From Acetobacteraceae bacterium AT-5844 (GTDB lineage Bacteria; Pseudomonadota; Alphaproteobacteria; Acetobacterales; Acetobacteraceae), in the NCBI GenBank assembly GCA_000245075.1, contig JH599935.1:1-64000 (forward strand): a stretch of 64,000 bases of DNA, given 5' to 3'. The notes beneath the pieces were generated by a model. That model saw nothing but the letters and a program-made list of their open reading frames with translations, was not told the origin of the DNA and did no database searches. Numbering within the stretch: the stretch's first letter is position 1; each line of letters starts with the position of its first letter. Below, piece after piece: positions 45,817 to 64,000 of this stretch. The translations under genes were made by a program, and so were the position numbers.

Positions 45817-46713
45817 ATGAATTTACGAGGCATCGATCTCAACCTTCTCGTGGTGCTCGACGCGCTGCTTGAGGAGGCCCATGTGTCGCGCGCGGCGGAG
45901 AGGCTGGGGCTGTCCCAGCCCGCTGCTTCCAGCGCGCTGGACCGGTGCCGCGCGCTGTTCCGCGACCCGTTGCTGGAGCGAGGGCGCGGCCTCATGCGCC
46001 TTACCCTGAAGGCCGAGGCACTGAGGGCGCCCTTGAGGGCGTGGCTGTCCGATGCAGAAGCAATCCTGGACCCGCCCACGCCCGAGCTCGCGAGGCTGGA
46101 GCAGACGGTGCGGCTCGTAATGGCCGACATGCCCGCAGCCTTCGTCGCGGGACCGCTGCATATGGCGCTGCGATCCTCGGCGCCCCGTCTCAACCTCGTG
46201 GTGCAGCCCTGGCATGGCGCGGCGGCGGCATTGGAGGACCTGGCCCGGGGCGGCAGCGATCTGGCCGTCTCTGTCTTCCCTGACGTGGACGCGGCGTTCC
46301 GGCGCGAGGAACTCTCCCGAGAGCGCTATGCCGTGGTGATGCGGCGCGGGCACCCAGCCGCGGAAGGCTTCGGGCTGGAATCATGGCTGGCCTGGCCGCA
46401 TTTGCTTGTCTCTGGCCGTGGCGAGACCAACAGCCCGCTGGACCGTCAATTGGCGCGGATGGGCAGGGCCCGCCGCGTGGGGCTGGTGGTGCCGAGCTTC
46501 CTGATGGTGTTGCCGCTGGTGCGCGGTTCGGAACTCATCGCCATGTTGCCGGAACGCTGCCTTCCGGAAGAGGAGCGGGACGCCTTCCAGATCTTCCCAC
46601 CGCCAATCCCGGTCGAAGGTTTTCCGCTGCATCTGGCCTGGCATATGCGGCGGGACAGGGACCCCGCTGTGCGCCATGTGGCCGGGCTATTGCGCCAGCA
46701 TCTTGCGGCGTGA
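45817..46713 (+). CDS. LysR-family transcriptional regulator (NodD/LinR-like)
   Basis: 298 aa. HTH in residues 6-65: LNLLVVLDALLEEAHVSRAAERLGLSQPAAS (given by position; key feature is the ALLEE-HVSRAA-LGLSQPA pattern of the NodD-LinR-like subgroup) followed by the effector domain. Divergent from the flavodoxin-fold oxidoreductase and preceded by a LysR box that overlaps its own promoter, fitting autoregulation plus control of that gene. Quinones or aromatic compounds are plausible inducers by analogy. Confidence 0.92.
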   Translation: MNLRGIDLNLLVVLDALLEEAHVSRAAERLGLSQPAASSALDRCRALFRDPLLERGRGLMRLTLKAEALRAPLRAWLSDAEAILDPPTPELARLEQTVRLVMADMPAAFVAGPLHMALRSSAPRLNLVVQPWHGAAAALEDLARGGSDLAVSVFPDVDAAFRREELSRERYAVVMRRGHPAAEGFGLESWLAWPHLLVSGRGETNSPLDRQLARMGRARRVGLVVPSFLMVLPLVRGSELIAMLPERCLPEEERDAFQIFPPPIPVEGFPLHLAWHMRRDRDPAVRHVAGLLRQHLAA

Positions 46714-46716
46714 GGC

Positions 46717-47169
46717 TCAGTCCCCGGTGACGCTGCCGCCGATCTCGCGTGACTGGCCCTGGAACAGCGCCACCACCTCTCCTTCCGGATCGGTGACCCG
46801 CACTTCATAGACGCCGCTGCGGCCCGATTGCGCGGAAAGGCGCGCATGAGCGGTAAGGGTGGTGCCGGCCTTGCCCGGCCGCAGATAGGTGATGCCGCAG
46901 GCCTGCGCCACGGTACGGCGATTGAAGCTGTTGCAGGCAAAGGCGAAGGTGCTGTCGGCCAGGGCGAAGAGGAAGCCGCCATGGCAGGAGCCGTGGCCGT
47001 TCAGCATGCGCGGCTCAATCTCCATGGCGATGACCGCCTCGCCCGGTGCTACGCGGAGCAGCCGCATTCCGAGCCCCTGCGAGGCCGCGTCGTTCCGCCA
47101 CATGGCCTCGGCGGCGGCTTCGGCCAGCGCCTGGGCGTCTGGCATGGTCTGGTCGGTATTCTGGCTCAT
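46717..47169 (-). CDS. paaI: Phenylacetic-acid degradation thioesterase PaaI
   Basis: 150-aa hotdog thioesterase that recovers CoA from dead-end ring-hydroxylated phenylacetyl-CoA. The hotdog helix motif GHGSCHGGFLFALADS contains the catalytic Asp; NSFNRRTVAQACGITYLRP follows. Start ATG at 47169 has GGAGGAA about 8 nt upstream; an upstream in-frame extension is rejected. Divergent from paaX, with a candidate PaaR-type box in between. Confidence 0.92.
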   Translation of the reverse strand: MSQNTDQTMPDAQALAEAAAEAMWRNDAASQGLGMRLLRVAPGEAVIAMEIEPRMLNGHGSCHGGFLFALADSTFAFACNSFNRRTVAQACGITYLRPGKAGTTLTAHARLSAQSGRSGVYEVRVTDPEGEVVALFQGQSREIGGSVTGD

Positions 47170-47288: not shown

Positions 47289-48152
47289 ATGACCGCCACG
47301 CCGCTGCAAGACATCCTGCGCCATGTGAACAATGCCCCGTCCCGCACCTGGTCGGTGGTCATCACGGTGTTCGGGGATGCGGTGGTGCCACGGGGCGGTG
47401 CCATCAGCCTGGCGACGCTGACGGAAATCTTCCAGGGCATGGGCGTGGCGGAAGGCGCGGTGCGAACCGCCATGTCCCGCCTCTCGGCGGATGGCTGGCT
47501 GGAGCGGAGCCGCCAGGGGCGCAACAGCTTCTACCGGTTGGCGGCGAAGGGGGAGGCCACCTTTGCCGAGGCCGCTGCCCGGATCTACGCCCCGCACGCG
47601 GTGGGCGCGGAGGTGCCGCGCTTCCGGCTGGTGCTGGCGGAACGAAGCGAGACGCGCGCGGCGTTGCAGCAGGCCGGTTTCGGGCAGGCGCAGCCGGGGC
47701 TGTGGGTGGCGCCGGCAGATGTGCCCCTGCCGGATGCCGCCGCCGAGGCGATTACCCTGCTGGCTGATGCCGGGCTGGAGGATGCACGGCGCCTGGCCGC
47801 GCAGAGCTGGCCGCTGGAGACGCTGGCCGAGGCCTACCGGCACTTCATTGCCGCCTTCACGCCGCTGGATGCCTGGGTTGCCGAAGGGCATGTGCTGAAG
47901 GGGCTGGACGCGCTGGTGGCGCGGGTGTTGCTGATCCACGAATACCGCCGTGCCGTGCTGCGCCACCCGGCCCTGGCGCCTGAGCTGATGCCGGCGGATT
48001 GGGCGGGCGATGCGGCGCGGAGCCTGTGCGCGCGGCTTTATCGGGCTTTGCTCCCGGCCTCCGAAGCGTGGCTCGATGCCCATGCCACCCGGGCGGAAGG
48101 CCCGCTGCCGCTGGCGGGGAAGGGGCTGGCGGCGCGCTTCAGCGGGGTCTGA
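47289..48152 (+). CDS. paaX: Phenylacetic-acid degradation repressor PaaX
   Basis: 287 aa. Winged-helix start (about 20-85: SVVITVFGDAVVPRGGAIS .. VRTAMSRLSADGWLERSRQG) followed by the PaaX C-terminal domain, including the LLIHEYRRAVLRHPALAPELMP segment near 235. In E. coli PaaX represses the paa genes and is released by phenylacetyl-CoA. ATG at 47289 is chosen; the in-frame extension upstream overlaps paaI. It lies 81 nt upstream of paaA. Confidence 0.93.
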   Translation: MTATPLQDILRHVNNAPSRTWSVVITVFGDAVVPRGGAISLATLTEIFQGMGVAEGAVRTAMSRLSADGWLERSRQGRNSFYRLAAKGEATFAEAAARIYAPHAVGAEVPRFRLVLAERSETRAALQQAGFGQAQPGLWVAPADVPLPDAAAEAITLLADAGLEDARRLAAQSWPLETLAEAYRHFIAAFTPLDAWVAEGHVLKGLDALVARVLLIHEYRRAVLRHPALAPELMPADWAGDAARSLCARLYRALLPASEAWLDAHATRAEGPLPLAGKGLAARFSGV

Positions 48153-48169
48153 AGCGTTACCGATTTTCC

Positions 48170-48197
48170 TTGAGCGGCGAAAAAAATGTTTTATATT
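48170..48197 (+). promoter_or_regulatory. Promoter of the paaABCDE operon
   Basis: TTGAGC (48170-48175), 16-nt spacer with an A tract, TATATT (48192-48197): a good sigma70 promoter about 37 nt before the paaA ATG. GAGGAGG (48221-48227) is the ribosome site. No PaaR-type palindrome is visible right here. Confidence 0.65.
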
Positions 48198-48233: not shown

Positions 48234-49241
48234 ATGTACACCCAGGCGCTCAACGCCCGTGATGAATCCACCGCCATTCGCCCGGCCGATGAACTGGCGC
48301 ATGAGGAGCACTTCCAGGCTCGTGTCGATGCCGAGGAGCGCATCGAGCCGAACGACTGGATGCCGGCCGCCTATCGCAAAACGCTGATCCGCCAGATTTC
48401 CCAGCACGCGCATTCCGAGATTGTCGGCATGCTGCCGGAAGGCAACTGGATCACCCGCGCGCCCTCCCTCCGCCGCAAGGCCGCGCTGCTGGCCAAGGTG
48501 CAGGATGAATGCGGCCACGGTCTCTATCTTTATGCCGCCGCCGAGACGCTGGGCGTCACCCGTGAGGAGCTGACGGACCAGTTGCTGAGCGGCAAGGCCA
48601 AGTATTCCTCCATCTTCAACTATCCCACCCTGACCTGGGCGGATATCGGCGCCATCGGCTGGCTGGTGGATGGCGCGGCCATCATGAACCAGATCCCGCT
48701 CTGCCGTTGCTCCTATGGCCCGTATGCCCGCGCCATGATTCGCGTGTGCAAGGAGGAGAGCTTCCATCAGCGCCAAGGCTACGAGATCATGCTGACGCTG
48801 TGCCGGGGCTCGGAAGAGCAGAAGGCCATGGCGCAGGATGCGCTGAACCGCTGGTGGTGGCCGTGCCTGATGATGTTTGGCCCGCCGGATGCCGCCAGCC
48901 AGCATTCGGACCAGTCCACCCGCTGGAAGATCAAGCGCTTTTCCAATGACGAGCTGCGGCAGAAATTCGTCGATGCGACGGTGCCGCAGGCGCATTACCT
49001 GGGCCTGACGCTGCCGGACCCGGAGCTGCGCTTCGAGGCTGATGCGGAAGGCGACGGCACCACCGGCCACTGGCGCTACGGCGCCATCGACTGGGACGAA
49101 TTCAAGCAGATCCTGGCCGGCAACGGCCCCTGCAACCGGGACCGCCTGGCGGCCCGCAACAAGGCTCATGATGACGGCGCCTGGGTGCGCGAGGCCGCTC
49201 TGGCATTTGCCGAGAAGCGCCGCGCCCGGCAGGCCGCCTGA
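48234..49241 (+). CDS. paaA: 1,2-phenylacetyl-CoA epoxidase catalytic subunit A
   Basis: 335-aa di-iron oxygenase subunit that inserts oxygen into phenylacetyl-CoA with PaaB, C and E. Ferritin-like di-iron ligands: [15 protein letters not shown] near residue 85-95 and [12 protein letters not shown] (ExxH) near 180, as in E. coli Paa[12 protein letters not shown] is the usual start. Full length, first gene of paaABCDE. Confidence 0.96.
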
Positions 49242-49254
49242 GGAACACCCGCCG

Positions 49255-49542
49255 ATGACCAAGGCCATTACCCCGCTGTGGGAAGTCTTCATTCGCAGCC
49301 GCAATGGGCTGGCCCACAAGCATGTGGGCTCCCTTCATGCCGCCGATGCCACGCTGGCGCTGCAGGCGGCGCGTGATGTCTATACGCGGCGGGGGGAGGG
49401 GCTCTCCATCTGGGTCGTGCCCTCCAACACCATCACGGCCTCCGACCCCGGCGAGAAGGGCATGATGTTCGAGCCCGCCGAGAGCAAGATCTACCGTCAC
49501 CCGACCTTCTACGAGGTGCCCGACGAAGTCGGGCACATGTAA
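49255..49542 (+). CDS. paaB: 1,2-phenylacetyl-CoA epoxidase subunit B
   Basis: 95-aa non-catalytic subunit that bridges PaaAC heterodimers. WEVFIRSRNGLAHKHVGSLHA near the start (residue 8 onward) and the ITASDPGEKGMMFEPAESKIYRHPTFY tail (by position 60-86) are diagnostic. The ATG at 49255 lies 13 nt after the paaA stop. Confidence 0.96.
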   Translation: MTKAITPLWEVFIRSRNGLAHKHVGSLHAADATLALQAARDVYTRRGEGLSIWVVPSNTITASDPGEKGMMFEPAESKIYRHPTFYEVPDEVGHM

Positions 49543-49558
49543 GGCGGAGGCTGGACGA

Positions 49559-50335
49559 ATGGCCACCACCTCGATCCGCGTCTCCGAGACCCCGCTGGTT
49601 CTCTACGCTCTTCGCCGTGCCGATGATGCGCTGGTGATGGGCCACCGCCTCTCCGAATGGTGCGGCCATGCGCCGGCGCTGGAGGAGGACATGGCGCTGG
49701 CCAATATCGGGCTGGACCTGCTGGGGCAGGCGCGCTCCCTTTACGGCTATGCGGCGGAAGTTGAAGCCGCAGGCAATGACGAAGACGATTACGCTTATCT
49801 TCGCGATGCGCCGCAGTACCGCAACCTGCTGCTGGCCGAGCTGCCGAACGGGGATTTCGCCCGTACCATCCTGCGGCAGTTCTTCTATGCCGCTTTCACC
49901 GACCTTTACTGGCGGGCGGTGATGAAGTCATCCGACGCGACGCTCGCGGCCATCGCCGCGAAGTCGGAGAAGGAATCCGCCTACCACCTGCGCCATAGCG
50001 CGGAATGGGTGATTCGCCTGGGCGACGGCACGGAGGAAAGCCATCGCCGCGCCGCCGACGCGGTGGCCTATCTCTGGCCCTATACCGGCGAGATGTTCGA
50101 AGCCGATGCCGCCGAGCAGGAGCTGATCGCCACGGGCGCTGTGGTGGACCCCGCCGCCTTGCGTGAAAGCTGGGACAAGACGGTGAGCGACATCCTGGCG
50201 GAAGCGACGCTGGAAAAGCCCGCCTATGGCTGGATGCAGAAAGGCGGCCGCACGGGCCGCCACAGCGAGCATCTGGGGCATCTGCTGGCGGTGATGCAGT
50301 CCGTCCAGCGAGCCTATCCCGGCGCGACCTGGTGA
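49559..50335 (+). CDS. paaC: 1,2-phenylacetyl-CoA epoxidase subunit C
   Basis: 258-aa ferritin-fold structural partner of PaaA. RRADDALVMGHRLSEWCGHAP, DMALANIGLDLLGQAR and ESAYHLRHSAEWVIRLGDGTEESHRR (positions about 20-60 and 140-165) are conserved. It lacks a full di-iron site in known complexes. Starts 16 nt after paaB; its TGA overlaps the GTG of paaD. Confidence 0.96.
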   Translation: MATTSIRVSETPLVLYALRRADDALVMGHRLSEWCGHAPALEEDMALANIGLDLLGQARSLYGYAAEVEAAGNDEDDYAYLRDAPQYRNLLLAELPNGDFARTILRQFFYAAFTDLYWRAVMKSSDATLAAIAAKSEKESAYHLRHSAEWVIRLGDGTEESHRRAADAVAYLWPYTGEMFEADAAEQELIATGAVVDPAALRESWDKTVSDILAEATLEKPAYGWMQKGGRTGRHSEHLGHLLAVMQSVQRAYPGATW

Positions 50336-50880
50336 ATGCCATGGCCCAGGGCGTGACAGCACGGGTTGTGACAGCACTGGGAAGCCCGCCCGCCGGCGAC
50401 GAGGCGCTGCGGCAAAAGGCGATCGACGCCGCGAGCACGGTGGTGGACCCGGAGATCCCGGTGCTCACCATTGCCGATCTCGGTGTGCTGCGGGATGTGA
50501 CGGTTGAGGGCGGGCATGTCCGCGTGGACATCACCCCCACCTATTCCGGCTGCCCGGCGATGAACATGATCGCGGTGGAAATCGACATCGCCCTCTCCAA
50601 GGCCGGCATCGAGGACAAGGAAATCCGCACCGTCCTGGCCCCGGCCTGGACGACCGATTGGATGAGCGAGGATGGCCGGCGCAAGCTGCGCGAATACGGC
50701 ATCGCGCCGCCGCAACCCGGGAGCGGCCGCCGCGCGCTGTTCGGTAAGGATGTCGTCACCTGCCCGCGCTGCGGGTCGAAGGAGACGCACTTGCTCGCGG
50801 AATTCGGCTCGACCTCCTGCAAGGCGTTGTGGCGCTGCGAGAGCTGCCGCGAGCCCTTCGACTACTTCAAATGCCATTAG
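50332..50880 (+). CDS. paaD: Phenylacetyl-CoA epoxidase assembly protein PaaD
   Basis: 182 aa. DUF59/MIP18 domain (VVDPEIPVLTIADLGVLRDV, near 37) followed by a C-terminal four-Cys zinc-ribbon-like segment (CPRCGS .. CRCESCREPFDYFKCH region, near 145-180). Thought to help insert iron or Fe-S clusters into the epoxidase. GTG at 50332 overlaps the paaC stop (GTGA); an ATG three codons later is an alternative start. Confidence 0.95.
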   Translation: MNAMAQGVTARVVTALGSPPAGDEALRQKAIDAASTVVDPEIPVLTIADLGVLRDVTVEGGHVRVDITPTYSGCPAMNMIAVEIDIALSKAGIEDKEIRTVLAPAWTTDWMSEDGRRKLREYGIAPPQPGSGRRALFGKDVVTCPRCGSKETHLLAEFGSTSCKALWRCESCREPFDYFKCH

Positions 50881-50923
50881 GCGCCCGTAAGAGCCCCTTG
50901 TAAGAACCAGGACGGAAACGCGC

Positions 50924-52018
50924 ATGTCCGCGACAACCACCACGCCGCGCTTCCACCGGTTGCGCATCGCCGACCTGAAGCGGGAGACGCGCGACGCCGT
51001 TTCCATCGCCTTCGATGTGCCGGAGGATATGCGGTCGATCTACGCCTTCGCCCCCGGCCAGTACCTCACGCTGCGCACGACGCTGGAGAATGAGGAAGTC
51101 CGCCGTTCCTACTCCATCTGCTCCGGCCCCGATGACGGAGAGCTGCGCATCGCGGTGAAACAGGTGGATGGCGGCGCGTTCTCCACCTGGGCCAACACCG
51201 CCCTGCACGCCGGCGACGAGCTGGATGTGATGACGCCGACGGGCCGCTTCGGCGTGGCGGCCATGCCGGGCGAGGCGCGCATCCATGTCGGCTTCGCGGC
51301 GGGTTCTGGCATCACGCCCATCCTGTCCATCGTGCGCGGCGTGCTGGCGCGGGAGCCACAGAGCCGGTTCTTCCTGTTCTATGGCAACCGCTCCGGTGCC
51401 GACATGCTGTTCCGCGAGCAGCTGGAGGAGCTGAAGGACCGGTTCCTCGGCCGCCTTTCCATCTTCCATGTGTTATCCAAGGAAGAACAGGACATTCCCA
51501 TCCTGAACGGGAGGCTGGATGGCGAGAAGGTGCGGGTACTGTTGCGCCATATCGTACCCGCCGAGCAGGTGGACCACATCTTCGTCTGCGGCCCCACGGG
51601 GATGAGCGAGGATGTCGAGGCCACTTTGCGGGAGATGGGGGTGCCGGAGGAGCGCGTGCATGTCGAGCGCTTCGTCTCCGCCCAGGGCGGGCGCCCGCAG
51701 CGGAAGCCCGTGCCCACCGCCGCCGAGGTGGAGACCGCCCACCGTACGGCGTCCCTGATCGTCGATGGCAACCGCCGCGAGGTGAAGGTGGCGGAGGGGG
51801 AGGCCATCCTGGATGCCGCCCTCCGCGCCGGGCTGGACCTGCCCTATGCCTGCAAGGGCGGCATGTGCAGCACCTGCCGCGCCAAGGTTGTGGAGGGCTC
51901 GGTGGAGATGGAGGTGAACTACTCGCTGGAGCCCTGGGAGACCAAGGCTGGCTTTGTCCTCACCTGCCAGGCCCACCCGACCAGCGAGCATGTCGTGATC
52001 GATTACGACCAGATGTGA
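50924..52018 (+). CDS. paaE: 1,2-phenylacetyl-CoA epoxidase reductase subunit E
   Basis: 364-aa electron-transfer flavoprotein. FAD-binding RRSYSICSGP near 62, NADPH fold GFAAGSGITPILSI near 125, and a C-terminal plant-type [2Fe-2S] ferredoxin domain with CKGGMCSTC near 310 and LTCQAHP near 345. It passes electrons from NADPH to the PaaA di-iron site. Preceded by a 43-nt gap after paaD. Confidence 0.96.
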   Translation: MSATTTTPRFHRLRIADLKRETRDAVSIAFDVPEDMRSIYAFAPGQYLTLRTTLENEEVRRSYSICSGPDDGELRIAVKQVDGGAFSTWANTALHAGDELDVMTPTGRFGVAAMPGEARIHVGFAAGSGITPILSIVRGVLAREPQSRFFLFYGNRSGADMLFREQLEELKDRFLGRLSIFHVLSKEEQDIPILNGRLDGEKVRVLLRHIVPAEQVDHIFVCGPTGMSEDVEATLREMGVPEERVHVERFVSAQGGRPQRKPVPTAAEVETAHRTASLIVDGNRREVKVAEGEAILDAALRAGLDLPYACKGGMCSTCRAKVVEGSVEMEVNYSLEPWETKAGFVLTCQAHPTSEHVVIDYDQM

Positions 52019-52088: not shown

Positions 52089-53579
52089 ATGCGGCGCATG
52101 GGGGCATGGATCTGGCGGTGGCGGCGCTGGCTGCGTGGAGCGGCGCTGCTGGGCGTGCTGCTCGCGGCCGGGGGCTATGCTGCCCATTGGCTGGACAGCC
52201 GGGAATCCCTGCTGGCCAGCGACCCGGAGCGCCGTGCGAGCCAGTTGACCCTGCCGCCGCGGGAAAGCGCCGCGATGCTGCGCCTCAACCTGCCCATCGA
52301 CCTGCTGCGGCAGGCTGCCGAGCGCGCGCTGCCCGCCGAGTTCAAGCAAGTGAGCGCCGAGGGCGCGGACACCCGCTACGACCTGACTATCCGCCGCACC
52401 GGCGGCTTCAGCCTGACGGAAGCCGGCGGCAAGCTGCGCGTGCGTGCCCCGCTGGTAGTGGACGGCACGGTGGGGCTAGCCGGCGGGGTGGCGGATTTCC
52501 TGGGGCTCGGCGCCAAGAATATCGACGCGGCGGCCGATGTGCAGGCAGACCTGCAGGTGACGATGGATGATGGCTGGTGCCCTGTCGTCACCATGAATGT
52601 CAGCTATGGCTGGACGCGCAGCCCAAGGCTGGAGGTCATCGGCGGCATCTGGGTCGGTATCGAGGCACAGGTGCGGGAACAGGTGGAGGCCGCGCTTCGG
52701 CAATTGCCGGAGCAATTGCGCAAACTGCTCCCTTGCGCGACGGTGCGCGAGCAGGCGCTGGAGTTGTGGCAGCCGCGCGTTATTCCGGTGCAGCTGCCGG
52801 CCGCGCCGCCGCTCTATATCGGCTTTCACCCGCAGAGCATCGGCCTGTCGGAGTTGGTGGTGGAGCCCCGGGCGCTGCGGCTGATGCTGGGCCTGCGGGC
52901 GCGCACCACTATGTCTTCCACCGCGCCGCCAGACCCGCAGCCGACATTCCTGCCGCCGCTGCACAGCCTGCCGGAGCGCTGGGCGGAGCGTGATGGCCGC
53001 CTGCGCCTCTCCCTGCCCATCCGTGCCGGTTACGACATGGTGCGGGACTGGCTGATGCGGGAATTCGGCGAGCGTGACATCCCCTTCGAGACGCCGCTGG
53101 GCACGGTGCAGTTGCGGGTGAAGCAGATTTTCCTTTATCCGAGCGCACCTTCTATCGCCATGGCGGTGACATTCAGCGCCGATCTGCCTGGGTCCTGGCC
53201 GGACACGACGGGCGAGGTCGTGTTCTCCGGCCGGCCCGTGCTGAGCCAGGGCGGCACGCGGGTGGGGCTGACCGATATCCGCTTCTCCCGCAACCTGGAC
53301 AGCGCCGTCTGGTCCCTTGTCACCATCCTGTTCGAGCAGAAGATCCGCGACATGCTGCGGGATGTCGCTGTCTACGACCTGAAGGAAGTGATGGATGGCG
53401 CGGTGGCCGAGTTGCGCCGCCGCCTGGCGGATCCCAATTTCACCAGCGGCCTGCGCGTGGCGCTGACGGAGCCGAGCATCCGCCTGGAGCAGGTGGTGCC
53501 GGAGAATGACGCGCTAACCGTGCTAGGCACGGCGGAGGCCGGGCTGGAGGCGGAGATCACCGCCCTGCCCATTCCCTGA
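52089..53579 (+). CDS. DUF4403 family protein (membrane-anchored, periplasmic)
   Basis: 496 aa with one N-terminal membrane helix (about 17-33) after an Arg/Trp-rich cytoplasmic tip (RRMGAWIWRWRRWLR), so anchored in the inner membrane with the bulk outside. The rest matches DUF4403, with repeated beta-rich segments (SYGWTRSPRLEVIGGI, FSADLPGSWPDTTGEVVFSG). Function unknown; similar proteins have been proposed to bind lipids. It follows paaE by 70 nt on the same strand, but this may be chance. Confidence 0.85.
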   Translation: MRRMGAWIWRWRRWLRGAALLGVLLAAGGYAAHWLDSRESLLASDPERRASQLTLPPRESAAMLRLNLPIDLLRQAAERALPAEFKQVSAEGADTRYDLTIRRTGGFSLTEAGGKLRVRAPLVVDGTVGLAGGVADFLGLGAKNIDAAADVQADLQVTMDDGWCPVVTMNVSYGWTRSPRLEVIGGIWVGIEAQVREQVEAALRQLPEQLRKLLPCATVREQALELWQPRVIPVQLPAAPPLYIGFHPQSIGLSELVVEPRALRLMLGLRARTTMSSTAPPDPQPTFLPPLHSLPERWAERDGRLRLSLPIRAGYDMVRDWLMREFGERDIPFETPLGTVQLRVKQIFLYPSAPSIAMAVTFSADLPGSWPDTTGEVVFSGRPVLSQGGTRVGLTDIRFSRNLDSAVWSLVTILFEQKIRDMLRDVAVYDLKEVMDGAVAELRRRLADPNFTSGLRVALTEPSIRLEQVVPENDALTVLGTAEAGLEAEITALPIP

Positions 53580-53619: not shown

Positions 53620-54936
53620 TCAGTCGCGAGTACGCCGGTCGATCACGCGGCGCATCTTGCCCATGGAGCGCTCGACTCCGCCCGGCTGCTCGATGACAAC
53701 CTTGGTGCTGATGCCGATGGTGTTCTTGATCTGCTCCACCAGCGCCTGGGCTTCCCGTGGCAGGCCCTCGCCATCCCAGAGGCCAGGCTGGCACTCGGCA
53801 TGGATCGCCATGCAATCCATCCGGCCTTCCGTGGTCAGGCGAATCTGGAAGTGGCCGCTGCACCAGCTCTGGGCCAGCAGCGCCTCCTCGATCTGCGAGG
53901 GGAAGACGTTGACGCCGCGCAGGATGATCATGTCGTCCGAGCGGCCAGTGACCTTTTCCATCCGCCGCATGCCGGCGCGCGCGGTGCCCGGCAGCAGCCG
54001 CGTCAGGTCCCGCGTGCGGTAGCGGATGACGGGCTGACCTTCCTTGGTGAGCGTGGTGAAGACCAGCTCGCCCAGCTCGCCATCCGGCAGGACGGCGCCG
54101 GTCTCGGGATTGATCACCTCCGGGTAGAAATGGTCTTCCCAGATATGCAGACCATCTTTGGTCTCCACGCATTCCTGCGCCACGCCGGGGCCCATCACTT
54201 CGGAGAGGCCGTAGATATCCACGGCCTGCATGTCGAAGGCCTGCTCGATTTCGCGGCGCATGGCATTCGTCCAAGGCTCGGCGCCGAAGATGCCGATCTT
54301 CAGCGAGGATTGGCGCGGGTCCAGCCCCTGGCGGCGGAACTCATCCAGCAGCGCTAGCATATAGCTGGGCGTCACCATGATGATCTCCGGCCGGAAGTCG
54401 TTGATGAGCTGCACCTGCCGCTCTGTCATGCCGCCAGACATGGGAATGACGGTGCAGCCTAGCCGCTCCGCGCCGTAATGGGCGCCAAGTCCGCCGGTGA
54501 ACAGCCCGTAGCCATAGGCAACATGCACCTTCATGCCCGGCCGGCCCCCGGCGGCATGGATGCTGCGGGCCATCAGATCGGCCCAGTTGTCGATATCGCC
54601 CTTGGTGTAGCCCACGACGATGGGCTTGCCGGTGGTGCCGGAGGAACCATGAATGCGCGCGATCTTCTCCTGCGGCACGGCGAGGAGGCCGAAGGGGTAA
54701 TTGTCCCGCAGGTCCGTCTTCACCGTGAAGGGAAACTTCGCGATGTCCTCAAGCGCCTTGAAGTCATCGGGGTGCACGCCCGCCGCGTCGAAGCTGCGCC
54801 TGTAATGGGCCACGTTGTCGTAGGCATGGCGCAGGATGCGCGCCATGCGGTCCCGCTGCAGGGCGCGGATCTCCTCGCGCGATGCGCGCTCCGCCGCCGA
54901 GAACACGGGCGGCTGTTCCAGGAGCGATGCACTCAT
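53620..54936 (-). CDS. paaK: Phenylacetate-CoA ligase
   Basis: 438 aa; activates phenylacetate to its CoA thioester with ATP, committing it to the pathway. ANL-superfamily signature HGSSGTTGKPIVVGYTKGD near 95, DIYGLSEVMGPG (near 230) and the hinge/C-terminal RSDDMIILRGVNVFPSQIEE. Starts 26 nt after paaG on the minus strand, so paaG-paaK form one unit. Length and motifs are typical. Confidence 0.96.
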   Translation of the reverse strand: MSASLLEQPPVFSAAERASREEIRALQRDRMARILRHAYDNVAHYRRSFDAAGVHPDDFKALEDIAKFPFTVKTDLRDNYPFGLLAVPQEKIARIHGSSGTTGKPIVVGYTKGDIDNWADLMARSIHAAGGRPGMKVHVAYGYGLFTGGLGAHYGAERLGCTVIPMSGGMTERQVQLINDFRPEIIMVTPSYMLALLDEFRRQGLDPRQSSLKIGIFGAEPWTNAMRREIEQAFDMQAVDIYGLSEVMGPGVAQECVETKDGLHIWEDHFYPEVINPETGAVLPDGELGELVFTTLTKEGQPVIRYRTRDLTRLLPGTARAGMRRMEKVTGRSDDMIILRGVNVFPSQIEEALLAQSWCSGHFQIRLTTEGRMDCMAIHAECQPGLWDGEGLPREAQALVEQIKNTIGISTKVVIEQPGGVERSMGKMRRVIDRRTRD

Positions 54937-54962: not shown

Positions 54963-55748
54963 TCAGGCGGGTTGTTTGCCGAAACGGGGCGGGCGTTTCT
55001 CCAGGAAAGCGCGGACGCCTTCGGCATAGTCGGCGGACTTTCCGGCCTGGCGTTGCAGGTCGCGCTCCAGGTCCAGCTGCGCATCCAGCGAATTGCCGGG
55101 CGAGACCTCCAGCGCGTGCTTGATGCGCGCGAGGCCTTCGGTGGACTGGTGCGCGAGGCGCTCCGTCAGGTTCTCGGCTTCCAGGGTCAGGCGCTCATCC
55201 TCCACGGCCTTCCAGATCAGTCCCCATTCGGCCGCGGTCGCGGCGGGCAGGGGATCGGCCGTGAACATCAGCGCCTTGGCGCGCGCCTCACCGATCAGGC
55301 GGGGCAGGAAGAAGGTGCCGCCGGAATCCGGCACCAGCGCGATCTTGGAGAAGGATTGGATGAACTTCGCCGATTGCGCCGCCAGGACGATGTCGCAGGC
55401 GAGAGCGAGGTTGGCGCCCGCACCGGCCGCGACGCCGTTGACGGCGCACACCACCGGCTTCGGCAGCGCGCGGATGCGGCGGATCAGCGGGTTGTAGAAA
55501 CGCTCCAGCGTATTTCCGAGGTCGGGGGCCTCGCCCGGCTTGCGGTCGCCGAGGTCCTGGCCGGCACAGAAGCCGCGGCCTTCGCCGGTCAGCAGGATGG
55601 CGCGGCAATCCTGTGCCTCGGCGGCCTCGCCGAGGGCCGCGTAGAGGGCCGCGTGCAGGGCCTCGTTGAAGGCGTTCAGTTTCTCGGGCCGGTTCAGCGT
55701 CAGCTTCCACCAGCCGTCGCGCTTCTCGACCTTCAGGACCTGTTCCAT
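54963..55748 (-). CDS. paaG: 2-(1,2-epoxyphenyl)acetyl-CoA isomerase PaaG
   Basis: 261-aa crotonase-fold enzyme that rearranges the ring epoxide to an oxepin-CoA. Oxyanion-hole segments GRGFCAGQDLGDR (near 60) and NGVAAGAGANLALACDIVLA (near 105), plus FIQSFSKIALVPDSGGTFFLPRLIG. The Asp of AGQDLG and the PDSGGTFFL form are characteristic of PaaG rather than generic hydratases. ATG at 55748 with GGAGGAA 7 nt upstream; first gene of the unit, divergent from the hydratase-dehydrogenase fusion. Confidence 0.94.
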   Translation of the reverse strand: MEQVLKVEKRDGWWKLTLNRPEKLNAFNEALHAALYAALGEAAEAQDCRAILLTGEGRGFCAGQDLGDRKPGEAPDLGNTLERFYNPLIRRIRALPKPVVCAVNGVAAGAGANLALACDIVLAAQSAKFIQSFSKIALVPDSGGTFFLPRLIGEARAKALMFTADPLPAATAAEWGLIWKAVEDERLTLEAENLTERLAHQSTEGLARIKHALEVSPGNSLDAQLDLERDLQRQAGKSADYAEGVRAFLEKRPPRFGKQPA

Positions 55749-55830: not shown

Positions 55831-55850
55831 TTGACCGTCCGGACGGTCAA
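55831..55850. promoter_or_regulatory. Perfect palindrome, candidate PaaR-type (TetR) operator
   Basis: TTGACCGTCCGGACGGTCAA, perfectly symmetric, in the 207-nt gap between divergent paaG and the hydratase/dehydrogenase fusion gene. The core ACCG-NN-CG-NN-CGGT fits the motif I recall for TetR-type PaaR regulators of phenylacetate genes in other bacteria. TTGACC at either end could also be a -35 element, so binding would block transcription. No paaR gene is in the window. Confidence 0.7.
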
Positions 55851-55955: not shown

Positions 55956-58052
55956 ATGGACAATCCCGGCAACGCAGCCGTCTCGATCACCCGCGCTGGC
56001 GCCGTGGCGGTCGTTCAGGTCTCCTATGCCCCCGTAAATGCGCTGTCCCGCCCCGTGCGGGAAGGCTTGCAGGCAGCGGCGAGGGCACTGGCGGCGGACC
56101 CCTCCATCCAGGCCGTGGTGCTGCATGGCGGCCCCGGCCGCTTCATAGCCGGCGCCGATATCAAGGAAATGGACCTGCCGCTGGATGAGCCGGTGCTGCC
56201 GGATGTCATCGCGGCCATCGAAGCCATCCCGCAGCCGGTGGTCGCGGCGATCGACGGCTTTGCCCTGGGCGGCGGACTGGAAATCGCCCTGGCCTGCGAT
56301 CTGCGGCTGGCGACGCCCAAGGCCAGCGTGGGCCTGGTGGAGACGCGGCTCGGCATCATCCCGGGCTCCGGCGGCACCCAGCGCCTGCCGCGCCTGGTGG
56401 GCACTGCCAAGGCCATCGAGCTGATCGGTGAGGCGAAGATCCTGAAGGCCGCGCAGGCGGTAGAGCTGGGCATCCTCGACCGCGTCGTGGAAGGCGATTT
56501 GTTGGCCGAGGCCATCCGCGTCGCGCCGCAGGCGGCCAAGCGCCGCGTGTCCGTGCTGCCGATTCCCTCACGTGACGAAACGGCGGAGGAAGCAGCGACG
56601 CAGGCGGCGGTGAAGAAGGGCAAGGGCGTTCCCGCCATCGCCGCCGCCGCCGCCCTGTTGCGGGAGACGGCCGGGCTGGCATTTCCGGAAGGGTTGAAGC
56701 GGGAGCGCGAGACATTCCTGCCCCTGCGTGACAGCGCCGAGGCCGCCGCTTTGCGCCACCTCTTCCTGGCCGAGCGGGAAGCCGGGCGCGTGCCAGGGCT
56801 GGAGGGCGTGTCGCCGCGCGAGGTGAAGCGCGTGGCGGTCATCGGCGGCGGCACCATGGGCAGCGGCATTGCCATTGCCGTGGCTGACGCGGGCCTGCCG
56901 GTGCAGGTACTGGAGCGCGATGCCGAGGCCGCTGAGGCCTGTGCCGCCCGCCTGCGCGACACCTATGGCAAGCAGGTGAAGAGCGGCCGGCTGACCGAAG
57001 CGGCAGCCGCCGAGCGGCTGGCGCTCATCACGCCGGTGCATGACTGGAGCCTGCTCGCGGAGGTCGACCTGATCATCGAGGCGGCGTTCGAGGAGATGGG
57101 CGTCAAGGCCGATATTTTCTCGCGGCTCGACAAGGTGGCGAAGCCGGGTGCGGTGCTGGCGACCAACACCTCATACCTCGACCCCGATGCCATCGCCGGC
57201 TTCACCAGCCGGCCGCAGGATGTGCTGGGGCTGCATTTCTTCGCCCCTGCCAATGTCATGAAGCTGTTGGAAGTGGTCCGCTGCGCGAAGACGGCGCCGG
57301 ACGTGCTGGCCACGGGCCTCGCCTTCGGCAAGAAGCTGGGCAAGCTGCCGATCGTCTCCGGCGTGTGCGAGGGCTTCATCGGCAACCGCATCTATGCCGT
57401 CTATCGCCGCCACGCCGAGTATCTGGTGGCCGATGGTGCCTCGCCGCGCGAGGTGGATGCGGCGCTGGAGGCCTTCGGCTTCGCCATGGGCATCTTCGCC
57501 GTCAGCGATATGTCCGGCCTCGATATCGCCTGGGCCATGCGCAAGCGCCGCGCCGCCACGCGGGACCCGGCCGAGCGCTACGTGACCATCGCCGACAAGC
57601 TCTGCGAGGCCGGCCGCCTGGGGCGGAAGACAGGCGCGGGCTGGTATGACTACGCCAGCGGCAAGGCCCAGCCGGACCCGGTGGTCGATGCTGTCATCGC
57701 GGAGGAGCGGGCGGCCGCCGGCATCACGCCGCGCACCTTCTCGCAGCAGGACATTCAGAACCGCCTCCTTGCCGTGATGGCCAATGAGGCGGCGAAGATC
57801 GTGGCGGAGGGCATCGCTCTCCGGCCGTCTGACATCGATCTCGTTTTCACCAATGGCTACGGCTTCCCGCGTCTCCGGGGCGGGCCGCTCTTCGCCGCCG
57901 ACCAGATGGGCCTCGGCCCGGTGCTGGCGGAGGTCGAAGCGGCGGCCGCGGCAGGCGGAAAGGGCTCCGAGCCCGCACCTCTGCTGCGCGAGCTGGCCGA
58001 GAACAACAGCACCTTCAAGGAATGGCAGCGCAGGCAGAAATCGCCCGGCTGA
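55956..58052 (+). CDS. Bifunctional enoyl-CoA hydratase / 3-hydroxyacyl-CoA dehydrogenase (PaaF-PaaH-type fusion)
   Basis: 698 aa. Residues 1-200: crotonase domain (FIAGADIKEM oxyanion site near 60; DGFALGGGLEIALACDLRLA near 100, with Glu in ETRLGIIPGSGGTQRLPRL). Residues 289-460: NAD-binding domain (VAVIGGGTMGSGIA). Residues 475-690: two HCDH C-terminal domains (GFIGNRIYAVY, GYGFPRLRGGPL). It resembles FadB/FadJ and short-chain PaaH combinations and, within this locus, could perform both the PaaF hydration and PaaH oxidation. ATG at 55956 has GGAGGAA 9 nt upstream. Confidence 0.9.
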   Translation: MDNPGNAAVSITRAGAVAVVQVSYAPVNALSRPVREGLQAAARALAADPSIQAVVLHGGPGRFIAGADIKEMDLPLDEPVLPDVIAAIEAIPQPVVAAIDGFALGGGLEIALACDLRLATPKASVGLVETRLGIIPGSGGTQRLPRLVGTAKAIELIGEAKILKAAQAVELGILDRVVEGDLLAEAIRVAPQAAKRRVSVLPIPSRDETAEEAATQAAVKKGKGVPAIAAAAALLRETAGLAFPEGLKRERETFLPLRDSAEAAALRHLFLAEREAGRVPGLEGVSPREVKRVAVIGGGTMGSGIAIAVADAGLPVQVLERDAEAAEACAARLRDTYGKQVKSGRLTEAAAAERLALITPVHDWSLLAEVDLIIEAAFEEMGVKADIFSRLDKVAKPGAVLATNTSYLDPDAIAGFTSRPQDVLGLHFFAPANVMKLLEVVRCAKTAPDVLATGLAFGKKLGKLPIVSGVCEGFIGNRIYAVYRRHAEYLVADGASPREVDAALEAFGFAMGIFAVSDMSGLDIAWAMRKRRAATRDPAERYVTIADKLCEAGRLGRKTGAGWYDYASGKAQPDPVVDAVIAEERAAAGITPRTFSQQDIQNRLLAVMANEAAKIVAEGIALRPSDIDLVFTNGYGFPRLRGGPLFAADQMGLGPVLAEVEAAAAAGGKGSEPAPLLRELAENNSTFKEWQRRQKSPG

Positions 58053-58077: not shown

Positions 58078-60114
<2,037 letters not shown>

Positions 60115-60120
60115 AGCGGG

Positions 60121-60591
60121 CTAGAGGGGCAGGGCGGAGGTGTTCTTGATCTCCCGCAGCGCGAAATGCGACGAGATGTGCTGCACGGCGGGGTTCACGA
60201 ACACCACCTCCTGAAGAAAGCGCTCGTAATGCGCGGCATCCTTGACCACGGCGCGGATGATGTAGTCCGCGCTGCCGGTCATGGAAAAGCATTGCAGAAC
60301 TTCCGGCCGCTCCAGGATCGCCCGTTCAAAATCCTGCAGCGCGTCACGGTTGTGCTTGGCCAGGGTGACATTGGCATAGACCGTCTGCCCATAGCCGAGC
60401 TTGGCGGCATCCAGCCGCGCCACATATTCCAGAATGATCCCGGCATCCTGCAATGCCTTCAGCCGCCGCCACGTGGGAGAAGTGGAGAGGCCGATCGCGT
60501 CCGCGAGTTCCTGCACGCTTTGCCGGGCGTTCTTTTGCAGGGATGCCAGAATGGCCCGCTCGAACTGATCCAGATCGGCACTCTCCGGCAT
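60121..60591 (-). CDS. Lrp/AsnC-family transcriptional regulator (BkdR-like)
   Basis: 156 aa. AsnC-type HTH in 10-60 (LDQFERAILASLQKNARQSVQELADAIGLSTSPTWRRLKAL, cited by position) and a C-terminal RAM ligand domain (ECFSMTGSADYIIRAVV region). Divergent from the 2-oxoacid dehydrogenase genes, which matches bkdR-bkd of Pseudomonas, where BkdR activates with branched-chain amino acids. ATG at 60591 has GAGGGA 6 nt upstream. The regulator-target link is inference from position. Confidence 0.85.
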   Translation of the reverse strand: MPESADLDQFERAILASLQKNARQSVQELADAIGLSTSPTWRRLKALQDAGIILEYVARLDAAKLGYGQTVYANVTLAKHNRDALQDFERAILERPEVLQCFSMTGSADYIIRAVVKDAAHYERFLQEVVFVNPAVQHISSHFALREIKNTSALPL

Positions 60592-60782
60592 GGTTATCCC
60601 TCTATATTTTGGACCGGCATGCTTGTGCCGGTTTGGTGGCATTTATCGCTGGATTATGCCTCATCATCGACGGAACGAGAAAAACAAAGAACGGTTTTTC
60701 CCCTGATCCAGGCCTAGGCTGATGGCAACGCATCGCCCGCCGGGACCCTACCCGAAGCCGGGCTGGATACAGGGAACGGACC
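60592..60782. promoter_or_regulatory. Divergent Lrp-bkd control region with two dyads
   Basis: 191 nt holding both promoters. Two inverted repeats stand out: ACCGGCA (60613-60619) / TGCCGGT (60626-60632) with a 6-nt spacer, and GAAAAAC (60679-60685) / GTTTTTC (60694-60700) with an 8-nt spacer in an A-rich patch. The second is AT-rich like many Lrp sites. Both are candidates for regulator binding; neither is proven. Confidence 0.5.
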
Positions 60783-62879
60783 ATGGGATCGCTCGCTCGC
60801 TCCAAGCCATCCTTGCCCGCGCGCAGCCAGAGGGCCCTGCCGGCCCTGGACTGGCGCAGGGTTGCCTATCTGCTTCACGTCTCCCGCGCGCTGGACGCGC
60901 TGGAGGAAAAAACCCTCGTTCCTGAGAAGAAGGTTCTCTACCAGTTCTCCGCACGCGGGCATGACCTGGCCCAGATCATCCTGGGCCTTGGCCTGACGGA
61001 ACGGCATGACGCCGTCTGTGGCTATTACCGCTCCCGCCCCATGCTGCTGGCGCTGGGGGTGGAGATTGAGGAGGCGCTGGGCTCCTCCATGGCGCGCGCA
61101 GGCGGATATTCGGACGGGCGCGATATCGGCGTCGTCTTCAACTATCCCAACCCGCATGGCGCTTCTGCCTTGCCCATGTGCGGTGGCGTGGGCGCGCAAT
61201 ACACCCCGACCGTGGGCTGGGCGCAGGCCATCGAGTACCACCGCACGGTTTTGCAGGATGCTAGCTATGACCACGCCATCGGCGTGGTGCTGGGCGGCGA
61301 GGCATCCGTCGCGACGAATGGCTTCTGGTCCGCCTTGACCATTGCCACGACACAGAAGCTGCCGGTCCTGTTTTACATCGAGGACAATGGCTACGGCATC
61401 TCCGTGCCATCCACCTTCCAGACGCCCGGCGCGGATATCGCCGCCAATCTGGCGAGCTTCAAAAACCTGCACGTGATTTCGGGCGATGGTACGGACCCGG
61501 TGACCGCGGCCACGCTGATTGCCGAGGCCCAGGCGCATGTCCGCGACAGGCAAGGGCCATGCCTGCTGCGCCTGACGGTGCCGCGCCTGCAAGGCCACAG
61601 CTTCCAGGATACGCAGGCCTATAAATCCGCCGCGACTGTGGAAGCGGAATGGGCGCGGGACCCGCTACCCAAGCTACATGACCTCCTGGTTCCCGAATGG
61701 ATGGAACAGGCGGAATGGGATGCGCTGGCTCAGGAGGCAGCCGAGGTGGTTGAGGCCGCCCGCGTGGCCGCCGAGCAGCGCCCGGTCGCGCGGCCGGAGA
61801 CGGTGCTGCGCCATGTCTTCTCGGAAGCCGAGCCGCAGGTGATGGGCGGCCTTCGTTCGGCAGGTGTGGCCATGCCGGAAGGCAGCGAGCGTGCCGCGCC
61901 GGAGGGGGCACGCATCAACATGGTCACCGCCATCCGCCGCACGCTGGAGCACGAACTGGCCACCAATCCGCGCGTGCTGCTGTTTGGCGAGGATATCGGC
62001 CCCAAGGGCGGCGTCCATGCCGTGACACTGGGCTTGCAGGAGAAGTTCGGTGCGGGGCGGGTGTTCGATACGAGCCTGTCTGAGGAAGGCATTGTCGGCC
62101 GAGCGGTCGGCATGGCGCTCGCGGGCCTGATGCCCGTGCCAGAAATCCAGTTCCGCAAATATGCCGACCCGGCTGTCGAGCAGATCAATGATTGCGGCAC
62201 CATGCGCTGGCGGACCAACAACCGCTTCGCGGCGCCCATGGTGCTGCGCATGCCGGTGGGCTTCTTCAAATGCGGAGACCCCTGGCACAGCCAGACCAAT
62301 GAGGTGCAGTTCGTGCATTCTCCGGGCTGGAAGGTTGCCGTTCCCTCCAATGCCGAGGACGCTGTCGGGCTCCTGCGCACCGCGCTGCGCGGTGACGACC
62401 CGGTGATGTTCCTGGAGCATCGTGCCATGCTGGATGCGGCCTGGGCGCGGAGGCCTTACCCCGGCGACGACTACGTCATTCCCTTCGGCCGCGCCAAGAC
62501 CACCATATCTGGCAACCGGCTGACCATCGTCACCTGGGGCGCCATGGTGGAGCGCTGCGAGGAAGCCGCCAGGGCCAGCGGTCATTCGGTCGAGGTCATC
62601 GACCTGCGCACGCTGATGCCGTGGGATAGCCGCGCGGTGCTGGAATCCGTCTCCCGCACGCATCGCTGCCTGATCGTGCATGAGGATCTGCGTACGGCCG
62701 GCTTTGGCGCGGAGATCGCGGCGGTCGTGGCCGATGAGGCCTTCATGGAGTTGGACGCGCCCGTGGCCCGCCTGACCATGCCGGACATACCGAGCCCACA
62801 TAACCCCGTGCTGCTGAACCATGTGGTGCCGTCCGCTGAACGGATCCGCGAGAAGATCGACGCGCTGGTGGAGTTCTGA
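60783..62879 (+). CDS. 2-oxoacid dehydrogenase E1, fused alpha-beta subunits (branched-chain type)
   Basis: 698 aa combining E1 alpha (1-355) and E1 beta (375-698), which are usually separate. The alpha part shows YYRSRPMLLALG, and a thiamine-diphosphate region with GGEASVATNGFWSAL and EDNGYGISVPS in place of the usual GDG..NN. The beta part shows RRTLEHELATNPRVLLFGEDIG, SLSEEGIVGRAVGMAL and HEDLRTAGFGAEIAA. It decarboxylates a 2-oxoacid and passes the acyl group to E2. Branched-chain substrate is inferred from the family and the divergent Lrp gene; acetoin-type is an alternative. Confidence 0.88.
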   Translation: MGSLARSKPSLPARSQRALPALDWRRVAYLLHVSRALDALEEKTLVPEKKVLYQFSARGHDLAQIILGLGLTERHDAVCGYYRSRPMLLALGVEIEEALGSSMARAGGYSDGRDIGVVFNYPNPHGASALPMCGGVGAQYTPTVGWAQAIEYHRTVLQDASYDHAIGVVLGGEASVATNGFWSALTIATTQKLPVLFYIEDNGYGISVPSTFQTPGADIAANLASFKNLHVISGDGTDPVTAATLIAEAQAHVRDRQGPCLLRLTVPRLQGHSFQDTQAYKSAATVEAEWARDPLPKLHDLLVPEWMEQAEWDALAQEAAEVVEAARVAAEQRPVARPETVLRHVFSEAEPQVMGGLRSAGVAMPEGSERAAPEGARINMVTAIRRTLEHELATNPRVLLFGEDIGPKGGVHAVTLGLQEKFGAGRVFDTSLSEEGIVGRAVGMALAGLMPVPEIQFRKYADPAVEQINDCGTMRWRTNNRFAAPMVLRMPVGFFKCGDPWHSQTNEVQFVHSPGWKVAVPSNAEDAVGLLRTALRGDDPVMFLEHRAMLDAAWARRPYPGDDYVIPFGRAKTTISGNRLTIVTWGAMVERCEEAARASGHSVEVIDLRTLMPWDSRAVLESVSRTHRCLIVHEDLRTAGFGAEIAAVVADEAFMELDAPVARLTMPDIPSPHNPVLLNHVVPSAERIREKIDALVEF

Positions 62880-62881
62880 GC

Positions 62882-64000
62882 ATGCCGGACGCTCCCACCA
62901 TCCAGACGATCGAGATCCTCTCCCCCATCGCGCAGGAGGGCACGACGGCCGCCATCCGCAACTGGTTCAAACGCGTGGGCGATGCGGTGCGCGAGGGTGA
63001 GCCGCTGGTCGAACTGGAGACGGACAAGGTGGCCATGGAAGTCGCCGCGCCGGCATCCGGCCGTCTGGCCGCTATCCTGATCTCCTCCGGCGATGTGCAG
63101 CCGGGTGCGCTTCTCGGGCATATCGAGCCAGGGGAAGGGGCCGCGCCGGCGCCCTCCGCCGCTCCTCCGCCGCCCTCGGCGCGCTTCGAGCCGGAGCTGC
63201 GCCTTTCACCTGCGGTGCGCAAGCTGGTTGCCGAGACCGGTATCGATCCTGTCGGTCTTGCCGGTAGCGGCAAGGGTGGCCGGTTGACGCGGGACGATGT
63301 GGTCCGGGCCTTGCAGCAGCGCGACGAACCGAGGTCGGAACCCCTGCGCGAGCCGGAGCCTGTGTCGGTGGGCGCCGTGCGTTCCAAAATGGTGCCGCAT
63401 ACGCCGATGCGCCGCCGCATTGCGGAGCATATGGCGCATTCCGTCGCCACGGCGCCGCATGTCACCGCCGTGTTCGAGGCGGATCTGTCGGCCATCATGG
63501 CGCATCGCGCCGCCCATCAGGGCGCGTTCGCCGCGCAGGGCGTCAAGCTGACGCTGACGGCCTATTTCGTGCAGGCCTGCGTGGAAGCCATGAAGGTCTC
63601 GCCGACGATCAACAGCCGTTGGCATGAGGATGCGCTGGAGGTGTTCTCCTCCATGAATATCGGCATCGGCACGGCCCTGGGCGACCAGGGATTGATCGTG
63701 CCGGTTGTCCATGAGGCGCAATCCCTCTCGCTGCTCGGCGTCGCGCAAAGGCTGCAGGACGTGACGCAGCGCGCGCGAGCCGGCAAGCTGACGCAGGACG
63801 ACGTGCGCGGCGGCACCTTCACCATTTCCAACCATGGGGTCTCTGGCTCGCTGGTGGCCACGCCGATCATCATCAACCAGCCGCAATCCGCCATTCTCGG
63901 TATCGGGAAGGTGGAGAAGCGCGTGGTGGTGCGGGAGATCAATGGCAGCGACGCGATGCTGATCCGGCCGATGAGCTACGTATCGCTCACTATCGACCAC
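62882..64000 (+). CDS. 2-oxoacid dehydrogenase E2 (dihydrolipoyl acyltransferase), truncated by window end
   Basis: 373 codons visible, 2 nt after the E1 stop; runs off the window without a stop. Lipoyl domain at 8-85 with the lipoylated Lys49 in ETDKVAME; a Pro/Ala-rich linker; the peripheral-subunit-binding domain at about 105-138 (LSPAVRKLVAETGIDP, GSGKGGRLTRDDV); then the catalytic chloramphenicol-acetyltransferase-like domain (HTPMRRRIAEHM, TFTISNHGVSGS). The last visible residues, SLTIDH, lead into the expected catalytic HRxxDG motif, so the cut is due to the window and not a gene defect. Confidence 0.93.
   Translation, partial: MPDAPTIQTIEILSPIAQEGTTAAIRNWFKRVGDAVREGEPLVELETDKVAMEVAAPASGRLAAILISSGDVQPGALLGHIEPGEGAAPAPSAAPPPPSARFEPELRLSPAVRKLVAETGIDPVGLAGSGKGGRLTRDDVVRALQQRDEPRSEPLREPEPVSVGAVRSKMVPHTPMRRRIAEHMAHSVATAPHVTAVFEADLSAIMAHRAAHQGAFAAQGVKLTLTAYFVQACVEAMKVSPTINSRWHEDALEVFSSMNIGIGTALGDQGLIVPVVHEAQSLSLLGVAQRLQDVTQRARAGKLTQDDVRGGTFTISNHGVSGSLVATPIIINQPQSAILGIGKVEKRVVVREINGSDAMLIRPMSYVSLTIDH

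Follow-up and report, generated by a model that had tools for sequence, protein, structure and literature searches.

A predicted PaaR operator at paaG and a candidate PaaX box at paaA in the phenylacetate locus of Acetobacteraceae bacterium AT-5844

Described repressors and the AT-5844 locus

PaaR of Burkholderia cenocepacia (BCAL0210) is a TetR-type repressor of paaA, paaH and paaZ; its operator is ACCGACCGGTCGGT, and mutating that operator derepresses paaA (PMC2770484, PMC9493321). PaaR of Thermus thermophilus HB8 (TTHA0973) is phenylacetyl-CoA-responsive (PMC9493321, PMC6651687), and release from DNA by phenylacetyl-CoA is known for both proteins (PMC9493321). The box of the Escherichia coli repressor PaaX has been described as TGATTC(N27)GAATCA (PMC9493321). 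A PaaR collection that goes back to work in Corynebacterium is listed in RegPrecise (PMC3840689). That PaaR and PaaX occur together in a single paa context, Alphaproteobacteria included, was reported as a first in 2026 (PMC13186573); the main text of that report of predicted PaaR-X contexts uses none of the terms 'binding site', 'operator' and 'dual', and no partition of promoters was found in it.

The locus analysed here lies in a window of 64,000 nucleotides of Acetobacteraceae bacterium AT-5844 (contig JH599935.1, C26 below; Table 1). Like the B. cenocepacia system, it combines a TetR-family protein, predicted operators at paa promoters and a palindrome whose core (55834-55847) matches ACCGACCGGTCGGT at 12/14 positions, and a betaproteobacterial locus of the B. 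cenocepacia layout (paaABCDE-DUF1835-TetR) encodes the reciprocal best match of the TetR protein. Unlike AT-5844, B. cenocepacia is without PaaX, and paaA is among the direct targets of its PaaR; the AT-5844 locus has paaX and, at paaA, a candidate PaaX-type box, and PaaR apparently acts on an ABC transporter and on paaX as well. With T. thermophilus the locus would share a TetR-type paa repressor, release by phenylacetyl-CoA, autoregulation and a palindromic site of similar length, whereas the T. thermophilus operator, CNAACGNNCGTTNG, is of another sequence and no PaaX is involved in that system as described. The likeness to E. coli consists of a PaaX-family protein and, strong in relatives and as a candidate in the window, a long-spaced inverted repeat at the paaA promoter with 26-27 bp between the hexamers; the half-site differs, being TGTTAC in Alphaproteobacteria, and the local paa promoters of E. 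coli are under the sole control of PaaX.

The paaX product scores 264.3 bits against TIGR02277, 0.25 bits below the cut-off of 264.55. The genes paaA, paaC, paaD and paaE form an ordered unit in relatives. The fused hydratase/dehydrogenase falls below the cut-offs of the FadJ, FadB and PaaH models; this FadJ-like gene stands in for separate paaF and paaH genes, and its counts in relatives were left out because its crotonase domain also matches PaaG. Inside the cluster, between paaE and paaK, lies a gene for a DUF4403 protein (205 bits; 52089-53579) without a known role in the phenylacetate pathway. At the edge of the cluster, a LysR-family regulator gene (45817-46713) adjoins paaI. Directly downstream of paaZ (60121-62879), an Lrp/AsnC regulator gene stands divergent from a gene for a fused dehydrogenase E1 (alpha plus beta), in what looks like a branched-chain keto acid dehydrogenase operon.

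Table 1. Genes and predicted sites of the locus. Coordinates are window positions unless a contig (C26) or locus (L021) is named.
Feature	Coordinates	Strand	Basis or remark
paaI, hydroxyphenylacetyl-CoA thioesterase	46717..47169	-	TIGR02286 above cut-off
Second PaaR-type site, TTCACCGAATGGCCGGTCAA	47201..47220	no strand	between paaI and paaX; P. aerophila counterpart TTCACCGGTCGGACGGTCAA
paaX, PaaX (GntR-type) family repressor	47289..48152	+	PF07848, PF08223 above cut-off
Candidate PaaX box, CGTTAC-N27-GTTTTA	48155..48193	+	paaX-paaA gap; 8/12, right arm degenerate
paaABCDE, ring-epoxidising oxygenase operon	48234..52018	+	ORFs and translations
paaA	48234-49241	+	ORF and translation
paaB	49255-49542	+	ORF and translation
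paaC	49559-50335	+	ORF and translation
paaD	50332-50880	+	ORF and translation
paaE	50924-52018	+	ORF and translation
paaK, phenylacetate-CoA ligase	53620..54936	-	TIGR02155, 720 bits
paaG	54963..55748	-	TIGR02280, 386 bits
PaaR operator (predicted), perfect 20-bp palindrome TTGACCGTCCGGACGGTCAA	55831..55850	no strand	sister sites; P. aerophila and R. mucosa conservation; 12/14 to Burkholderia operator
Fused enoyl-CoA hydratase / 3-hydroxyacyl-CoA dehydrogenase (FadJ-like)	55956..58052	+	PF00378, PF02737, PF00725
paaZ, bifunctional oxepin-CoA hydrolase / aldehyde dehydrogenase	58078..60114	+	TIGR02278, 1055 bits
Four-gene branched-chain-amino-acid-type ABC transporter operon	L021:4125-8896 = C26:64124-68895		divergent from paaR; two PaaR-type sites between
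TetR-family gene, PaaR candidate	C26:69075-69683		past window edge, divergent from ABC transporter; PF00440, PF17932

A palindrome at paaG and its sister sites

The palindrome TTGACCGTCCGGACGGTCAA lies in the divergent promoter of paaG and the hydratase/dehydrogenase gene. It is upstream of both genes, at 82 bp from the start codon of paaG (ATG at 55746-55748, minus strand) and about 105 bp from the start of the hydratase/dehydrogenase. It is the longest of the perfect palindromes of the 74-kb contig and the sole match to itself at up to three mismatches in the 64-kb window, shuffles giving 0. At 67% G+C, chance alone would give about 0.18 perfect 20-bp palindromes per 64 kb, because of which palindromy on its own is only suggestive of an operator; within the paaG-hydratase/dehydrogenase gap, the expectation is about 5e-4. 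Location, sister sites and conservation together decide its operator status.

The chance level per window is also what could recommend reading the palindrome as an accident, or as a structural element such as a hairpin or a bidirectional terminator, without any regulatory protein. This reading is scarcely credible: the flanking genes are divergent, not convergent, a terminator scan of the intergenic region found no terminator-like site, the palindrome is identical or near-identical across genera despite diverged flanks, and it has three sister sites. A sigma-70 promoter scan recognised no promoter around the palindrome in the intergenic region, so that promoter occlusion by a bound repressor is something we infer. 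In relatives, a conserved ATAAT-like element precedes the operator and ATGCAAG follows it. A fixed -35/-10 frame was also tried around the window operator, and no promoter was assigned, its own hexamers being unclear.

Searching the assembly (5.19 Mb) at up to three mismatches to TTGACCGTCCGGACGGTCAA returned, besides the palindrome, only positions 68932-68951 of the same contig, between the TetR gene and the divergent transporter operon; a second site in this gap, TTCACCGACCGAACGGTCAC, occupies 68986-69005. These two sites stand 13 kb away from the palindrome, about 5 kb past the window edge. The site between paaI and paaX precedes the paaI ATG by 32 bp and the paaX ATG by 69 bp. A degenerate consensus was drawn from the sites of this genome, a choice that is circular; despite this, the absence of further exact sites in 5.2 Mb is informative, the only exact matches (n=3) being the paaI/paaX, paaG and transporter/TetR sites, with the second TetR-promoter site one mismatch away. 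A loose scan with the same consensus (up to three mismatches) gave 355 forward versus 159 reversed-pattern matches and was uninformative beyond the exact ones. The palindrome-like TTCTCCGACCGGCCGGAGAA at 39236 falls inside the thrS coding region and was taken as chance.

The first-pass annotation of the window had placed a fully symmetric palindrome in this divergent promoter and read it as a PaaR-like site, placed where a repressor would control both divergent units. Its position and symmetry are confirmed, and the sister sites, together with the co-occurrence with TetR described below, speak for a PaaR operator. The PaaR-like site at paaG stands, and the second PaaR-type site in the window had been missed. 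The annotation had further proposed a genome scan for a TetR gene beside a second copy of the palindrome, and a TetR gene with similar sites was indeed found. The supposition that paaR is unlinked arose because the window ends at 64000, and it does not hold: the gene and the palindrome share a contig and are 13 kb apart.

The TetR gene and its operator in relatives

The C26 TetR protein scores 52.1 bits for PF00440 and 58.5 bits for PF17932, both above cut-off, as befits a TetR_N domain followed by a C-terminal ligand domain. The same two domains occur in the TetR protein of locus L260, which has the B. cenocepacia order (operator, paaABCDE, DUF1835 gene, TetR) and was used as a layout twin in the orthology test in place of BCAL0210 itself. 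The C26 TetR is a reciprocal best hit with betaproteobacterial TetR proteins encoded in paa clusters. In an unrooted tree, 24 PaaR-type sequences formed a group, with a support of 0.988, that left out the 17 remaining TetR proteins encoded by AT-5844; this PaaR clade includes the Bordetella structure 3ccy. The protein is 92% identical to the TetR of Pseudoroseomonas aerophila and only 33-38% identical to the betaproteobacterial proteins. Since many TetR families share the N-terminal domain, context and operator evidence weigh more than this identity. The TetR gene lies inside or beside paa clusters in 10 of the 14 family members with a match, and most relatives have it within the cluster. In named alphaproteobacterial loci the common order runs paaG-paaI-paaK-tetR, mostly with paaX-paaABCDE next, in either orientation. 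Judged by reciprocal best hit, the supported clade and linkage to paa genes in relatives, the C26 TetR is an ortholog of betaproteobacterial PaaR.

In P. aerophila, all four sites are found at the same places in otherwise diverged intergenic DNA. At paaG the 20 bp and short flanks are identical, as are both sites at the TetR promoter over their full length. Between paaI and paaX the intergenic DNA aligns at only 46% identity overall, yet its site is retained, with the centre changed (GAATGGCC against GGTCGGAC) and the outer arms intact. Roseomonas mucosa carries an identical 20-mer upstream of paaG. The published B. cenocepacia operator ACCGACCGGTCGGT served as an independent test motif, scored as at least 11/14 in the 250 bp preceding paaG, on loci that had been collected through their similarity to TetR, PaaA or PaaG and without regard to the motif. 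Conservation upstream of paaG in relatives, which the first-pass annotation had named as a test, holds where TetR is present: the motif was found in 56 of 61 loci with the TetR gene versus none of 22 loci without it, about 1.2% of dinucleotide shuffles reaching the threshold. About half of the leading paaZ promoters of relatives, and 16/22 of their leading paaX promoters, contain no recognisable PaaR site.

Another TetR protein of this bacterium, for example a repressor of fatty-acid or amino-acid catabolism acting on these beta-oxidation-like genes, might own the palindrome: TetR-family proteins number 18 in this genome, and operators of such a form are also used by TetR proteins other than PaaR. 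We consider this very unlikely, as every exact consensus match in the genome is found either at paa genes or at the C26 TetR gene itself and the site upstream of paaG follows this TetR across relatives in the proportions given above.

The transporter operon encodes a substrate-binding protein, permease and ATPases, one gene fusing permease and ATPase. The transporter ortholog of R. mucosa (70-72% identical) and the TetR gene are on separate contigs, yet this transporter has TTGACCAACCAGCCGGTCAA upstream, and in the betaproteobacterial loci L259 and L261 the same transporter genes stand within the paa cluster. These contexts argue that the transporter belongs to the PaaR regulon in its own right, and not through gene order alone. 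Uptake of phenylacetate or of an aromatic acid is its likely role.

The PaaX box and the sharing of promoters

The paaX-paaA gap of relatives contains TGTTAC-N26/27-GTAACA, an element unlike the palindrome; in this strong form it is widespread at paaA among Alphaproteobacteria with paaX. Its spacing is that of the E. coli PaaX box, and among spacers of 15 to 39 only 26 and 27 stand out. At a threshold of at least 9/12, this box is present at paaA in 46 of 50 loci with both TetR and paaX versus none of six with TetR and without paaX; where paaX is directly upstream of paaA, the comparison is 37/39 versus 0/6 (Fisher p 3e-6). Upstream of paaG, paaZ, paaX and TetR, the box occurs at or below shuffle level. 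Two genomes without TetR (G055, G062) have the box and no local paaX, and a genome search found an unlinked paaX in both. Among six other TetR-lacking genomes without a local paaX, five gave no PaaX match and the sixth (G010) a single one below cut-off; G109, one of the five, has a weak 9/12 box match that looks like a single half-site.

These data bear on the idea that PaaX, the sole phenylacetate regulator inside the window, binds the palindrome and makes a second regulator unnecessary. The window has a paaX gene, as do 59 of 90 loci with TetR; the presence of PaaX, however, tracks the long-spaced repeat at paaA and not the palindrome, whose geometry differs from that of a PaaX box and does not qualify it as a PaaX site. 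The palindrome is moreover absent upstream of paaG in a genome that has paaX and lacks TetR (L109), and present in loci that have TetR and no paaX in the locus. Binding of the palindrome by PaaX is therefore extremely unlikely.

The candidate box of the window scores below the threshold applied to relatives, and because of this PaaX control, although likely, is less certain in this species. An 8/12 box, together with a PaaR-type site upstream of the paaX-paaABCDE operon, is what one would expect if PaaR alone controlled the whole cluster and paaX were a relic without an operator here. We hold this to be unlikely: the half-sites and the N27 spacing of the candidate box are kept in P. aerophila, PaaX is intact (287 aa, with its N- and C-terminal domains), and the strong box is kept in most relatives with both genes, as counted above.

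Our preferred reading, which we regard as highly probable, is that the palindrome is a PaaR operator with paaR 13 kb away and that paaABCDE is held mainly by PaaX via the long-spaced box; DNA binding, repression, the ligand and the action of PaaX on the degenerate box of the window we infer from the characterised PaaR and PaaX. A PaaR dimer, or a pair of dimers, would bind the palindrome and block the paaG-paaK and hydratase/dehydrogenase-paaZ promoters, and PaaR would also bind the two sites at its own/transporter promoter and the one at the paaI/paaX promoter. PaaK forms phenylacetyl-CoA, which would release PaaR and induce the regulon. PaaX would be the main repressor of paaABCDE through the box at the paaA promoter, and phenylacetyl-CoA made by basal PaaK would release both repressors. 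Dual control by PaaX and PaaR, which the first-pass annotation had raised for this locus, gains support in this way, the PaaX box at paaA of relatives being its separate sign.

PaaX boxes and PaaR operators are found on different promoters: paaA for the former versus paaG, paaZ, the transporter, paaR and sometimes paaX for the latter. We lean slightly towards a division between two unrelated repressors that would extend across Alphaproteobacteria, in which PaaX holds paaA and PaaR holds paaG-paaI-paaK, paaZ, the transporter and, in some lineages (this one included), paaX, both probably sensing the same molecule, and in which lineages that have lost paaX acquire a PaaR site at paaA instead. This last point is only suggestive, the loci being few: a PaaR site (at least 11/14) is present at paaA in 2/6 loci without paaX (Fisher p 0.08), or in 4/6 if two perfect palindromes scoring 10/14 are counted. 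One family member (locus L103, genome G096) has a second PaaX homolog that is unlinked, while its paaA carries a PaaR-type site and lacks a PaaX box; this may be an operator swap.

The site itself is a further predicted PaaR operator; what appears new is evidence, at the level of operators, that one pathway is split between two repressors. No operator-level description or partition of PaaR and PaaX for Alphaproteobacteria was found in the open-access literature. The partition would give a concrete reason why many Alphaproteobacteria keep both PaaX and PaaR, and it predicts the promoter of each. It also links an ABC transporter that had no assigned role with phenylacetate or another, related aromatic compound as its substrate. 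PaaX and PaaR both respond to phenylacetyl-CoA in other bacteria, and the arrangement lets one ask what is gained from reading the same inducer twice; one such gain might be that the epoxidase, whose product is toxic, is delayed until the downstream enzymes have been made.
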